Positions 13,989 to 25,242 of a DNA stretch of 64,000 bases are shown piece after piece. Origin of the DNA: Methanoculleus oceani (GTDB taxonomy: Archaea > Halobacteriota > Methanomicrobia > Methanomicrobiales > Methanoculleaceae). A program made the position numbers and the translations under genes. The stretch is from contig NZ_QFDM01000001.1 in the NCBI RefSeq assembly GCF_023702065.1, forward strand, positions 310,001 through 374,000, written 5' to 3'. The notes under the pieces were generated by a model. The model was not told the origin of the DNA. It searched no databases and saw only the letters and a program-made list of their open reading frames with translations. The stretch's first letter is position 1. Each line of letters starts with the position of its first letter.

Positions 13989-14043
13989 CGCACCGCCCGG
14001 AAAACTCTTTTCTCTTCGGAACGCCCATACCTTTTCTGTGAAT

Positions 14044-15066
14044 ATGACCGCCGAGAGCCTCTCCCCCCCCGCCCGGATCGCGATCGTCGGGGCGGCGGTC
14101 GTCATCGTTCTCGCGGGGATCCGGGCGGCCGCCCCGCTCCTCGGCCCGTTCCTGGTCGCCGTCTTCTTCGCCATGATCACCGCGCCCGTCATGACGTGGC
14201 TGACCCGGCGGGGAGTGCCCCCGGTCCTCGCCGCCGGAACGGTGGTCGTGGCCCTCATCGGGCTCCTCGTCGGGGTGCTCGCCTTCCTCGGCGTGGCTTT
14301 CACCGGGTTTATCCGCTCCCTGCCGCAGTACCAGGCGAGCCTCGAGGGGCAGGCTGCCGGACTCGCCGATTACGGCATCGACCCCGGGACCTTCACGGTA
14401 TGGGACTACATCGACCAGGGGTACGTGATCCAGCAGGTGGCCGGGCTCGCCCGGCAGGTCGGGAGCATCACCTTCGACATCTTCATCGTCTTCGTCGGGA
14501 TCGGGTTCCTTCTCCTTGAGGCGCCCCGGCTCACGGCTGCTCTCGCGCGGCGCCTGGGGCCAGAGAACTCCCTATACCGGCACTTCTCGCAGTCGGGCCG
14601 GATCCTCATCGATTACGTGGTGGTCAGAACGAAGGTGAACCTGATCACCGGCGTCGGGACCGGGCTCTTCCTCACCCTCCTCGGGGTCGACTTTGCGGTG
14701 CTCTGGGGCTTTGTCGCCTTCGTCCTGAGCTACGTCCCCTACATCGGCCTCGTCGCAGCCGCGATCCCGCCCACCCTCCTCGCCTTCATCGAATACGGGC
14801 CGGCGGGAGCGGTGGCCGTCATCGCCGCCGTCGCCCTCATCGACGCCGCCGCCGAGAACCTCGTCCTCCCCCGGATGGCCGGGCGGGAACTCAACCTCTC
14901 GCCGTTCGTCGTCCTCTTCTCCGTCATCCTCTGGGGGCTCGTCCTCGGGGCGGTCGGGGTCTTCCTTGCCATACCGCTGACGATCGCGGTCAAGCTCTTC
15001 CTCGAGAGCTGGGAGGAGACCCGGTGGATAGGGGAGATGATGGGCAACGGAGGCCGGCGGGAGTAA
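14044..15066 (+). CDS. AI-2E family transporter (first copy)
   Basis: A 340-residue integral membrane protein of the AI-2E exporter/permease family (PF01594). Two N-terminal hydrophobic helices, a soluble stretch (residues about 85-140), then the conserved block VVRTKVNLITGVGTGLFLTLLGVDFAVLWGFVAFVLSYVPYIGL and a C-terminal AIPLTIAVKLFLESWEETRW. Some members of the family act as sodium/proton antiporters or exporters, so the substrate is open. The ATG at 14044 was chosen because upstream codons belong to the overlapping SulP gene. A second copy lies at 21026-22120, sharing the EETRW ending. Downstream is a DUF1269 protein, as often found with stress membrane genes. Confidence 0.88.
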   Translation: MTAESLSPPARIAIVGAAVVIVLAGIRAAAPLLGPFLVAVFFAMITAPVMTWLTRRGVPPVLAAGTVVVALIGLLVGVLAFLGVAFTGFIRSLPQYQASLEGQAAGLADYGIDPGTFTVWDYIDQGYVIQQVAGLARQVGSITFDIFIVFVGIGFLLLEAPRLTAALARRLGPENSLYRHFSQSGRILIDYVVVRTKVNLITGVGTGLFLTLLGVDFAVLWGFVAFVLSYVPYIGLVAAAIPPTLLAFIEYGPAGAVAVIAAVALIDAAAENLVLPRMAGRELNLSPFVVLFSVILWGLVLGAVGVFLAIPLTIAVKLFLESWEETRWIGEMMGNGGRRE

Positions 15067-21025: not shown

Positions 21026-22120
21026 ATGGACAACCCCTCTAACGACGATCGTATCTGCAAGAGGGAGGGGACCGTGCCCGCTCCGTCCCGCCTCGCATCC
21101 CTCACCCGGGTTGTCATCATCACTGCCGTCATCGTCACCGGCATGCACCTCGGCGCCGCGATTGTGAGCCCGGTGCTCGTCGGGTTCATCCTGGCGGTCA
21201 TTGTCACGCCGACGGTGCATCGCCTGGAAGAGCGCGGGCTGCCCCGGGTGGCAGGGGTGCTGGCGATGGTCGGGGCGATTGCCGGTGTTGTCCTGCTGCT
21301 CGTCGCACTCCTGAGCCTGTCGCTTGTCGAGCTCGACAGCGCGCTCCCCGCCTACCAGGACCTTCTGCGAGCGCAGCTTGTGGGGCTGCAGTCGTGGTTT
21401 GCAGACCTGGGAATTCCGGTATCGGTACAACCGCCCGAATCACCGAACGGCTCCATGCTTATCCCGCCGCTCTGGGAGATTCTCGCCGAACTCTCTATCC
21501 TGGCCATCGATTTCCTGGTCATCCTGATCGTAACCGTCCTCATGCTCCTGGAGGTAGCCTCTTTCCGGGGGAAACTCGTGCGAAGCCTGGGATCCGACAC
21601 CATGGCGGAACTCAACCGTTCCGCGAGCGACCTGGTTGCATATGCGTCCTTCCGCACCAAAAGCGGGCTTGCGACCGGTATCGCTGTCGCGATTCTCCTG
21701 CTGCTCCTCGGGATCGACGCCCCGGTGCTCTGGGCGGTCCTGATTGTCGTGCTCGGCTACATCCCCTACTTCGGGCTGCCTATCGCATCGGTGCCCCCTA
21801 TCGGGCTTGCCGGGCTCCAGCACGGCCTCCCGGGGGCACTTGCCGTTGCGGTCGGCATCTCTATCATCGACTTTCTCGCCCGCCGCTTCCTCCTGCCGTA
21901 CCCTGCCGAGCGGGCGCTCCGAATCTCCCCGCTGGTTATCATCCTCTCGGTCCTCGCCTGGACGCTGGTGCTCGGCGTCCCGGGACTGTTTCTGGCAGCT
22001 CCGCTGACTCTGCTTGTAAAGGCGGTGCTGTCGAGTTCGGAAGAGACACGGTGGATGGCAATACTGATGGAGCCGTCCGGGGATGCTGGGGGTCCTGGAA
22101 AACTCTCCACGGAGCGATAG
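21026..22120 (+). CDS. AI-2E family transporter (second copy)
   Basis: A 364-residue member of the same permease family as 14044-15066. Hydrophobic helices begin near residue 27; the conserved central block reads FRTKSGLATGIAVAILLLLLGIDAPVLWAVLIVVLGYIPYFGLPI and the C terminus APLTLLVKAVLSSSEETRW. It is diverged in the extracytoplasmic loop (about 105-140) from the first copy, so the two probably have different substrates. The ATG at 21026 follows an A/T-rich stretch (near 20993) that may hold the promoter; GGAGATGA precedes the start. It is probably transcribed separately from the oxidoreductase pair. Confidence 0.87.
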   Translation: MDNPSNDDRICKREGTVPAPSRLASLTRVVIITAVIVTGMHLGAAIVSPVLVGFILAVIVTPTVHRLEERGLPRVAGVLAMVGAIAGVVLLLVALLSLSLVELDSALPAYQDLLRAQLVGLQSWFADLGIPVSVQPPESPNGSMLIPPLWEILAELSILAIDFLVILIVTVLMLLEVASFRGKLVRSLGSDTMAELNRSASDLVAYASFRTKSGLATGIAVAILLLLLGIDAPVLWAVLIVVLGYIPYFGLPIASVPPIGLAGLQHGLPGALAVAVGISIIDFLARRFLLPYPAERALRISPLVIILSVLAWTLVLGVPGLFLAAPLTLLVKAVLSSSEETRWMAILMEPSGDAGGPGKLSTER

Positions 22121-22249: not shown

Positions 22250-24163
22250 ATGCGTGCCGGGACCGGTTGGCCGGTGCGGGAACCAAGAAGCCGGAACGGT
22301 CGAACCCGTGCAGCAGGGAGAGCACTCTTCCTGGCTCTCCTGCTCGGGGTACTGGTGGGCACGGGAGCCGCTCAGATGCAGGAGAATGCCAGTGTCCAGG
22401 AGCTGGACGGGAGAATAGAACCAGGTCAGGCTATCATTTACGATCTCCCCGGCCTGCAGGCGGGAGAAACCCTGTACGCCTATGCGGAGGGAGCTTCAGG
22501 AAACCTTGACCCGTTCCTCGCCGTAACGAACCCTGAGCTCAACACGAGCCGGGTGCGTAACGAATTCGCAAGCGAGGTGAACAGTTCGCTTGCAGCGGGG
22601 CAGGACCCGCTCAGGGTGATCCCGGAGATTGCCGGCCGGTACTTCCTCGCCTGGAACGACGATACGAACGGCACCTACGACTCCGCCCTGCAGCACCGCA
22701 TTCCCGCCGACGGCGACTATCTCCTGATCGTGATCGGCTCTCCGGCAAAACCCCAGCAGACCTTCGGAGACTATCGCCTCCTGGTCGGGATCGACGCCCC
22801 GCAGGTGCTGACCGGCCAGGCCGAACCGACAGGGGCCACCATCGCGATCTTGAATGCCTCGGCTTCGAAGATGCGTGTCGGCGTCCAGGAGGTGACGGGG
22901 AACCTCTCCGCCAACACATCATCGACCTTCTACACCTTGAGCCCGGTAGAGACGAACGACACGTTCTACGCCTTCATCGAAGCGACCTCCGGGGACCTGA
23001 TCCCGGCGATGATCCTGCGGGACTACGGCGGCAAACCTCTCGCAGTGGTGGCTCCTGCAACGGGGGGGACCAGCGCCACGCTCCAGTACACCTTCGGCGG
23101 CGCCAGCAGCAACAACCGGCTGGAGGTGCTCTCAAGCCCGCTGAACGGGGCCAACACGACGGGAGACTTCCGCCTGCTGACCGGCCTGAACGCCCCCGGC
23201 GTGCTCGCGGGCAACGAACCGCCCGGAGGCCCCCCCGTCCTGCAGGAGCCCATCAGGGTTAAAGTCGGCGTCGAACTGGACCAGATCACCGGCGTGGACC
23301 AGGTCAGCGAGAACTTCGCTGCGGTGGCCAACATCTGGATGGAGTGGACAGACCCCGCCCTGGCATTCAGCCCGGACGAATGCGGCTGCCGGGTCAAGAT
23401 CTACCGGAGCATCGACGATTTCGTCACGGCCGAGGGGTCACGGTGGCCGGAGTTCACGCTTATCAACCAGCAGGCGCAGCGCTGGACGCAGAACCAGCTC
23501 ATCCTGGTGCAGCCCGACGGCACCGCCACCTACTTCGAGCGTTTCTGGACAACCCTTCAGGCGCCGGACTTCAACTTTCGGGCCTACCCGTTCGATACCC
23601 AGGACTTCTACATCCGCATCGACTCGCTCTACCCTGAAGGGCTGTATGTCTATGAGCCATGGCCGGAGAAGACCGTCGTAGGCACCCAGCTCGGGGAGGA
23701 GGAGTGGTACATCACCTCGAGCGACACCAACATCAGCACGGTTCAGATCACGACCGAAAACTCCCGCTACTCCTTCCACTTTGCGGCTGCCCGTCACCTG
23801 ACCTTTTACATCCTCCGCATCCTGCTGCCCATCCTGATCATCATCATCCTGACCTACATCACGTTCCTCCTCAAGGACTACGGCAAGCGGGCCGAAATAG
23901 CCAGCGCCAATCTGCTCCTCTTCATCGCGTTCAACTTCACCATCGCCGGCGACCTGCCGCACCTCGGCTACCTGACCTTCCTTGACGCCATTCTGGTCGC
24001 CACCTTCGTCATCACCGGTGCAATCGTCGCCTACAACCTCTACCTGAGATGGCTGGCGACGGAGGCGCAGAAAGAGATCGCCGAGCGTATCGACCGGGTG
24101 ATGGTCTGGTTCTACCCGGCGGCGTACATCGCTGCGCTCATTCTTGCCTTGCTGCTCTTCTGA
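22250..24163 (+). CDS. pentameric ligand-gated ion channel with two extra N-terminal domains
   Basis: A 637-residue prokaryotic Cys-loop-type channel. After a signal helix (about residues 24-42) come two beta-sandwich domains (about 45-180 and 185-325), the second ending DFRLLTGLNAPGV like the first (DYRLLVGIDAPQV), so they look duplicated. The ligand-binding domain follows (about 335-520): RVKVGVELDQITGVDQVSENF, an ANIWMEWTDPALAF strand and the family's Pro-loop as YPFDTQDFYIRID, without the eukaryotic cysteines. Four helices close the protein: TM1 with the conserved Pro (RILLPILIIIIL), TM2, TM3 and a C-terminal TM4. The architecture matches DeCLIC, a bacterial channel with two N-terminal domains. 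Ion and ligand are unknown. It is a single gene with its own leader. Confidence 0.88.
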   Translation: MRAGTGWPVREPRSRNGRTRAAGRALFLALLLGVLVGTGAAQMQENASVQELDGRIEPGQAIIYDLPGLQAGETLYAYAEGASGNLDPFLAVTNPELNTSRVRNEFASEVNSSLAAGQDPLRVIPEIAGRYFLAWNDDTNGTYDSALQHRIPADGDYLLIVIGSPAKPQQTFGDYRLLVGIDAPQVLTGQAEPTGATIAILNASASKMRVGVQEVTGNLSANTSSTFYTLSPVETNDTFYAFIEATSGDLIPAMILRDYGGKPLAVVAPATGGTSATLQYTFGGASSNNRLEVLSSPLNGANTTGDFRLLTGLNAPGVLAGNEPPGGPPVLQEPIRVKVGVELDQITGVDQVSENFAAVANIWMEWTDPALAFSPDECGCRVKIYRSIDDFVTAEGSRWPEFTLINQQAQRWTQNQLILVQPDGTATYFERFWTTLQAPDFNFRAYPFDTQDFYIRIDSLYPEGLYVYEPWPEKTVVGTQLGEEEWYITSSDTNISTVQITTENSRYSFHFAAARHLTFYILRILLPILIIIILTYITFLLKDYGKRAEIASANLLLFIAFNFTIAGDLPHLGYLTFLDAILVATFVITGAIVAYNLYLRWLATEAQKEIAERIDRVMVWFYPAAYIAALILALLLF

Positions 24164-24216: not shown

Positions 24217-25242
24217 ATGAACTGCCCGGTCTGCGGGGGAGACTGCATCGAGAACGCTCCCACGCTCCTTGCACGGCTGCCGCACGCTTTCGCCCCCTGC
24301 CCCGACTGCATGGGGCTCGTCTACGACAAGAGGAGCCCCCCGCCCGATATCGATACGGCCGGGCCCTGCCCTTCCTGCGGGAAGCGGTTCATCGACGAGG
24401 TCTTCGCCCAGATCTACCGGGTGATGGCCGCTGAGGGGGACCTCGCCGGGACCGAACCCCTCGCCGCCGCCGCAACACCGCTCGTTCACCCCGGGTTTGC
24501 CATGCGCTCGGCCCCTCACCTCCCGCCCCGATCGCTCGTCCTCCTCTCCCGGTCGGTCGGGGAGCGGGCGGCCGCCCGCCTGGTCGCCGAGGTCCCGGAG
24601 GTCCGGGGGGTCGTCAGGACCGGGGCCGGGACGCCGGGGATCACGGATACCGACGCGGCGCCGCAGGCATACACCCTGCTTGCCGGGTGCGACGTCCGGG
24701 CCGACATCTTCCCCACCCGGGCGGGACCGATCGTCGTCTACAAGCAGCAGTCGGTCCTACACGTCGAGTTCCCCCGGGACCAGAACGAGAAGATCCTCTC
24801 TCTCGAGCGCGAGATCGGGCAGCACCGGCCCCGGACCTTCGTCGACGCCTGCTCCGGTGCCGGAACTCTCGCGCTTGCCGCCGTCCGGGCGGGCATCCCC
24901 CGCGTGATTGCGAACGACGCCTGGTACGCGGCAGCCTTCTGGACCACCTGCAACCTCCGGGTGAACCGGGAGGTCCTCGGGATCGGGGAGGTGACGATGC
25001 ACCGGTCCTGCGACGACCTCCGGCGCCGACCGGTCGCGCGGGACCCCGTCCTCGTCGCCACCGTCACCGGCGCGCAGGAGATCGAGGTTTACCAGGGAGA
25101 TCTGCGGCTGCTTCCGGCCGTCCTCCCGCCCGAAATCGACCTCGCTGCCCTCGACCTCTTCGAGAAGGCGGATGCCGGGAAGGTCGGCCGGATCACCGGA
25201 GCCTGGCAGGCCCGGGTGGGCGGAGCTATTTTTATCCCATAG
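24217..25242 (+). CDS. SAM-dependent methyltransferase with N-terminal zinc ribbons
   Basis: A 341-residue archaeal protein. Three CxxC knuckles open it (CPVCGGDC, CPDC and CPSCGK, within the first 55 residues), probably a zinc ribbon. The C-terminal half has a Rossmann methyltransferase core: FVDACSGAGTLALAAVRAGIPRVIANDAW (about 207-236) is the SAM-binding motif I, and a later EIDLAALDLF strand sits where motif IV falls. The combination suggests RNA or tRNA methylation, but the substrate is unproven. No NPPY-type motif is obvious, so it may be inactive or use an unusual target. The ATG at 24217 directly precedes the first CPVC and lies about 25 bp after a TATA box. Confidence 0.78.
   Translation: MNCPVCGGDCIENAPTLLARLPHAFAPCPDCMGLVYDKRSPPPDIDTAGPCPSCGKRFIDEVFAQIYRVMAAEGDLAGTEPLAAAATPLVHPGFAMRSAPHLPPRSLVLLSRSVGERAAARLVAEVPEVRGVVRTGAGTPGITDTDAAPQAYTLLAGCDVRADIFPTRAGPIVVYKQQSVLHVEFPRDQNEKILSLEREIGQHRPRTFVDACSGAGTLALAAVRAGIPRVIANDAWYAAAFWTTCNLRVNREVLGIGEVTMHRSCDDLRRRPVARDPVLVATVTGAQEIEVYQGDLRLLPAVLPPEIDLAALDLFEKADAGKVGRITGAWQARVGGAIFIP
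25226..25236 (+). promoter_or_regulatory. TATA box of the SRP RNA gene
   Basis: CTATTTTTATC is about 25 bp upstream of the predicted 5' end of the SRP RNA, overlapping the last codons of the methyltransferase. Confidence 0.55.

Follow-up and report, generated by a model that had tools for sequence, protein, structure and literature searches.

DeCLIC, from a Desulfofustis deltaproteobacterium (PDB 6v4a, 6v4s, 9ev1, 9eva), has the general build of the neurotransmitter-receptor channels of animals. It is according to its authors the only pentameric ligand-gated ion channel (pLGIC) bearing an N-terminal domain (NTD) that has been characterised so far (PMC12664993). Ca2+ inhibits this channel, and its coordinating residues have been assigned to site 1 (D76, P77, D123, D124, Y129), site 3 (E347, P434, F436, L477) and site 4 (Q476, G478, E480) (PMC12664993). 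The classification of DeCLIC as cation-selective rests on two acidic rings at the cytoplasmic end of its pore (PMC12664993, PMC9897478), and its NTD appears to speed up gating (PMC12664993). Most cryo-EM structures of DeCLIC without Ca2+ are closed, and opening may take a further signal (PMC9897478, PMC12664993); PDB titles also list open DeCLIC at pH 5, with and without Ca2+. According to Jaiteh et al. 2016 (PMC4795631), Euryarchaeota and Thaumarchaeota contain pLGIC genes, which are interspersed with bacterial relatives; the main text does not discuss the NTDs or Ca2+ sites of archaeal pLGICs. In the literature we searched, which took in few subscription papers, we found no archaeal pLGIC with N-terminal lobes and no report joining a pLGIC or ligand-gated ion channel with a methanogen or with Methanoculleus.

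A DeCLIC-type channel gene in Methanoculleus oceani

We analysed a 64,000-nucleotide stretch of the Methanoculleus oceani genome (the window; contig NZ_QFDM01000001.1, positions 310,001 to 374,000) and, within it, one open reading frame whose features are given here in window coordinates, with the basis of each in brackets:

22250..24163, + strand: DeCLIC-type pLGIC subunit gene, 637 aa plus stop, ATG start (open reading frame)
22250..22375, + strand: N-terminal signal peptide, about aa 1-42, with a basic n-region, the hydrophobic LFLALLLGVLVG, then GAAQ (sequence reading)
22385..22801, + strand: NTD1, aa 46-184, jelly-roll lobe, a pair of helices lying between its strands D and E (predicted fold)
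22508..22513, + strand: putative Ca2+ site 1, strand D, D87 and P88, for DeCLIC D76 and P77 (29/29 archaeal homologues)
22658..22678, + strand: putative Ca2+ site 1, strands E-F, D137, D138 and Y143, for DeCLIC D123, D124 and Y129 (29/29, 29/29 and 26/29 archaeal homologues)
22808..23197, + strand: NTD2, aa 187-316, second jelly-roll lobe (homology to NTD1; fold)
23237..23794, + strand: canonical extracellular ligand-binding domain (ECD), aa 330-515 (PF02931)
23309..23311, + strand: putative Ca2+ site 3 side-chain ligand E354, for DeCLIC E347, beta1-beta2 loop (28/29 archaeal homologues)
23381..23389, + strand: Cys378-Gly-Cys380 pair of the ligand-binding domain, for DeCLIC C371-G-C373 (alignment)
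23564..23572, + strand: putative Ca2+ site 3 backbone ligands P439 and F441, for DeCLIC P434 and F436, beta6-beta7 (alignment)
23585..23623, + strand: Pro-loop YPFDTQDFYIRID, aa 446-458 (sequence reading)
23687..23704, + strand: loop F QLGEEE, aa 480-485, putative Ca2+ sites 3 and 4, for DeCLIC Q476-E481 (alignment)
23798..23869, + strand: M1 helix, aa 517-540, with P527 (model)
23879..23947, + strand: M2 pore helix, aa 544-566 (model)
23978..24064, + strand: M3 helix, aa 577-605 (model)
24071..24157, + strand: M4 helix, aa 608-636 (model)

Searching the protein against solved structures with phmmer returned DeCLIC as the best match (E 1.1e-129 over aa 30-635), with 37.8% identity over 603 aligned positions; sTeLIC and GLIC, which have no NTD, align from aa 327-332 onward only. 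With about 270 residues of NTD ahead of the ECD, the protein does not fit the class that consists of an ECD and a transmembrane domain (TMD) only. The family profile search that the sequence-only reading had proposed as a check matched the pLGIC ligand-binding domain (Neur_chan_LBD, PF02931; aa 332-508, E 2.9e-12, over the cut-off), the sole Pfam family found on the whole protein. Archaeal orthologues share 46-91% identity with the window protein, the closest named relatives lying in Methanoculleus genomes (up to 91%), and the channel gene is under purifying selection (dN/dS about 0.25); the open reading frame is thus a real gene. Sequence, fold and residue-level conservation all upheld the assignment made in that reading, and the protein is almost certainly a DeCLIC-type pLGIC. 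It adds a new branch, in archaea, to an established type of channel, the DeCLIC architecture itself having been described already.

The structural landmarks from which the channel had been recognised were also recovered. The Pro-loop begins with YPFDTQDF at aa 446-453, and its P447, F448 and D449 are invariant in a 13-sequence alignment. Four C-terminal helices are predicted, the first carrying the M1 proline, and both N-terminal beta-domains are predicted and end alike, in DYRLLVGIDAP (aa 174-184) and DFRLLTGLNAP (aa 306-316). An AlphaFold2 model of moderate confidence (single chain, 13-sequence alignment, mean pLDDT 77, pTM 0.52) gives a first beta-domain into which two helices are inserted, then another beta-domain, the sandwich of the ECD and finally the four helices, and so contains the pLGIC core with its expected helix topology; residues 22-36, within the signal peptide region, are low-confidence and helical. 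All of the top twenty Foldseek matches to the model are DeCLIC (best E 4e-60), as is the best match by VIA-align (Z 27.8 on 6v4a), and GLIC and sTeLIC align over 298-302 residues (Z 22-25). The whole-model rmsd to DeCLIC is high, about 10 Å, which probably reflects the inter-domain angles of a single-chain model.

The superposition of single lobes, likewise put forward as a check, placed NTD1 of a two-lobe model on the crystal structure of DeCLIC NTD1 (6v4b) with an rmsd of 2.0 Å over 150 residues (Z 21.0), and NTD2 on 9ev7 with 2.5 Å over 110 residues (Z 13.5); DeCLIC is thus the top match in NTD fold as well. Profile-profile comparison with hhalign indicates that NTD1 and NTD2 are homologous to one another (probability 99%, E 1.2e-18), and found no sequence relation between the lobes and the ECD. 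The duplicated N-terminal module described from the sequence is therefore real; it is not an innovation of methanogens: DeCLIC, too, has these two homologous lobes. The lobes match no Pfam family up to E 10. A single lobe resembles the Tk-SP jelly-roll and the clostridial collagen-binding and pre-peptidase C-terminal domains (3afg, 1nqd, 5sv5; fold Z 10.9-11.7), with scores of 11.7 (1nqj), 11.5 (3afg) and 11.1 (5sv5) at only 12-14% identity; unlike the NTD lobes, these domains are not part of any channel. The same jelly-roll similarity has been reported for the DeCLIC lobes, and Tk-SP has an overlapping Ca2+ site (PMC12664993).

Overall, the window protein shares with DeCLIC the whole domain order, the two homologous lobes, the NTD1 helices, the Ca2+ ligands of sites 1, 3 and 4, the acidic 2' and -4' pore positions, L9', F16' and the Cys-x-Cys pair. 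It differs in coming from an archaeal rather than a bacterial host and at 62% of positions, most strongly in NTD2 (28.5% identity), and N405, the outer-vestibule constriction of DeCLIC, is Q410. sTeLIC (6fl9) is 42.8% identical over ECD and TMD, with a nearly identical loop F (QLGEEEW) and M2, but has neither the N-terminal lobes nor the cysteine pair. GLIC (3eam) shares the pLGIC core fold (E about 1e-27) at about 27% identity and likewise differs in having no N-terminal lobes.

Conservation of the Ca2+ positions and of a cysteine pair

All 12 Ca2+-coordinating residues of DeCLIC are identical in the window protein. Across 29 archaeal homologues, most of them 34-40% identical to DeCLIC, these positions average 98% identity against a background of 37%, and none of 200,000 random domain-matched residue sets equalled them. 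Acidic residues of DeCLIC are kept acidic in at least 95% of homologues at 18 of 76 positions, and these 18 include every Ca2+ side-chain ligand together with D541 and E547 at the cytoplasmic mouth of the pore. We read this pattern as constraint at the Ca2+ positions and not as proof of metal binding, because conserved residues cluster in any fold; moreover, loop F and the Pro-loop/beta1-beta2 region take part in gating too and may be conserved for other reasons. Of the earlier suggestion that the channel senses an extracellular metabolite or ion, the ion part is borne out to the extent that the evidence points to Ca2+ as the sole solute; it speaks neither for nor against a metabolite agonist.

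The window protein contains no cysteines besides C378 and C380. The Cys-x-Cys pair is present in 26 of the 29 archaeal homologues, in DeCLIC and in a Rhodospirillales protein (L060); one subclade (L015, L016, L042) has lost it as a pair, and it is absent from sTeLIC, L061 and L063, all of which are without full N-terminal lobes. In these alignments, then, the pair goes with the lobes. The two DeCLIC papers, PMC12664993 and PMC9897478, mention neither cysteines nor disulfides. The pair could form a disulfide or a metal site, or play a plain structural role. That it is a redox or soft-metal sensing site working with the N-terminal lobes is doubtful; if it were, these channels would be dual sensors of Ca2+ and of redox state or metals in anaerobes.

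Pore and proposed gating

With pore numbering set from DeCLIC L554 (9') and F561 (16'), the alignment places D543 of the window protein at -4', just before M2, E549 at 2', L556 at 9' and F563 at 16'. From these residues one would naturally infer a pore that is selective for cations and gated hydrophobically. We consider it very unlikely that the protein instead conducts no ions and is a structural protein or a Ca2+-responsive surface receptor on a retained pLGIC fold: the pore-lining E/D2', L9', F16' and D-4' are conserved in archaea and DeCLIC alike, and the transmembrane domain ranks with the parts of the protein under the strongest constraint.

We propose that the window protein is probably a Ca2+-inhibited cation channel with a mechanism like that of DeCLIC. 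In this model, subunits would be exported and assemble into a homopentameric, DeCLIC-type Pro-loop channel whose NTD ring and ligand-binding domain lie outside the membrane. Extracellular Ca2+ would bind at each subunit interface (E354 and loop F) and in NTD1 (D87, D137, D138), stabilising a closed ring whose pore is shut at L9' and F16'. A drop in Ca2+, possibly combined with another signal such as protons, would loosen the NTD lobes and move loop F, whereupon the M2 helices would open and monovalent cations would flow. Against this mechanism, even DeCLIC is closed in most Ca2+-free structures, so that loss of Ca2+ may not suffice.

The main rival to Ca2+ gating is accordingly a pH or organic co-signal: a DeCLIC-type cation channel triggered by a change in pH, or by a small organic agonist that binds between subunits in the classical pocket, with Ca2+ having only a structural or modulatory part. 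We hold this to be a serious though less probable reading. DeCLIC seems to need a further signal to open (PMC9897478), two entries (9fth, 9fti) are titled as open DeCLIC at pH 5, in one case with 10 mM Ca2+ present, and PDB titles describe its relatives GLIC as proton-gated and sTeLIC as gated by alkaline pH. We found no evidence for an agonist pocket, however, and the strictly conserved acids of NTD1 site 1 lie far from it, a pattern that a role for divalent ions explains better. As to physiology, we can only guess that a Ca2+-inhibited channel would provide a cation leak or a signal in answer to divalent-ion or osmotic conditions.

Distribution, locus and history

The cut-off for PF02931 is exceeded in 27 of 232 Methanomicrobiales genomes, spread over six genera and five families, and a sample of the phylum added three more full-length homologues. 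Among Methanoculleus species, 10 of 35 carry the channel. In the tree, the archaeal sequences other than L051 and L052 form one clade of 27 sequences (support 100/97); the best tree leaves these two unplaced among bacterial sequences, and the AU test does not reject one common clade of archaea (p 0.20). A second group, only remotely related, consists of short pLGICs (about 320-390 aa; L017, L018, L020, L047-L049, L053-L056, L059) and is common in family f5 of the same order; these proteins have no N-terminal lobes, no acidic loop F and a quite different M2.

Two AI-2E (PF01594) transporter genes lie not far apart in the window, at 14002-15066 and 21026-22120, the second immediately upstream of the channel, as it is in 7 of the 10 Methanoculleus channel loci and in the sister genus g19. 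The downstream neighbour (24217-25242) has by our own reading a methyltransferase-like motif, along with cysteine motifs, and matches no Pfam family; it is found in all 35 Methanoculleus genomes and encodes a conserved uncharacterised protein. The full order of AI-2E, channel, methyltransferase-like and malate dehydrogenase genes holds at those same 7 of 10 loci and in g19, and the order of channel, methyltransferase-like and dehydrogenase genes recurs in a genome of another family (G059). Methanoculleus genomes that have no channel retain the methyltransferase-like gene and, where covered, the dehydrogenase. A functional coupling of channel and AI-2E transporter gains no support, because in the channel-less G010 the AI-2E gene directly adjoins the same methyltransferase-like gene, and because other genera lack the pairing.

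The patchy occurrence of the gene in Methanoculleus would fit contamination by bacterial DNA or a very recent transfer from a bacterium, and pLGICs are thought to move laterally (PMC4795631). The gene nevertheless lies 332 kb inside a 1.01-Mb contig of a genome that is 99% complete, synteny of its flanks extends through Methanoculleus and into a sister genus, and its GC and GC3 equal those of its neighbours. On the strength of the long archaeal contig, the synteny, the GC content and the clade support, we reject both origins as extremely unlikely. Searches for plasmid and viral carriage gave no match. Mostly vertical descent with repeated loss is the simplest reading, and an old transfer, before the order diversified, is possible.

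Several genomes carry additional or damaged copies. In G016, a second channel copy (L088; G016:C33, 8101-10649, minus strand) groups with the g19 type and is preceded by internally deleted AI-2E pieces; the segment seems to have moved with its junction. L021 of G043, tried as a candidate stand-alone NTD protein, proved to be a decayed fragment: L021:1402-1749 is the remnant of a second DeCLIC-type gene in a genome that also holds an intact copy (L012), showing gene birth and loss within one genome. At L032:5887-7721 (a gene also present as G107:C23), either a frameshift or an assembly error breaks the channel, where NTD gives way to ECD, into two reading frames that overlap.

With DeCLIC as a single protein, it was unclear which of its features matter. 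The 29 archaeal homologues show that evolution keeps the Ca2+ ligands, those of the N-terminal lobe as well as those of the ECD, along with the acidic positions of the pore and the cysteine pair, and the strict conservation of the Ca2+ ligands yields a specific, testable prediction. Natural comparisons are offered by close species that differ in whether this locus contains the gene, and methanogens supply a second lineage in which to pursue the long-standing question of how prokaryotes use these channels.
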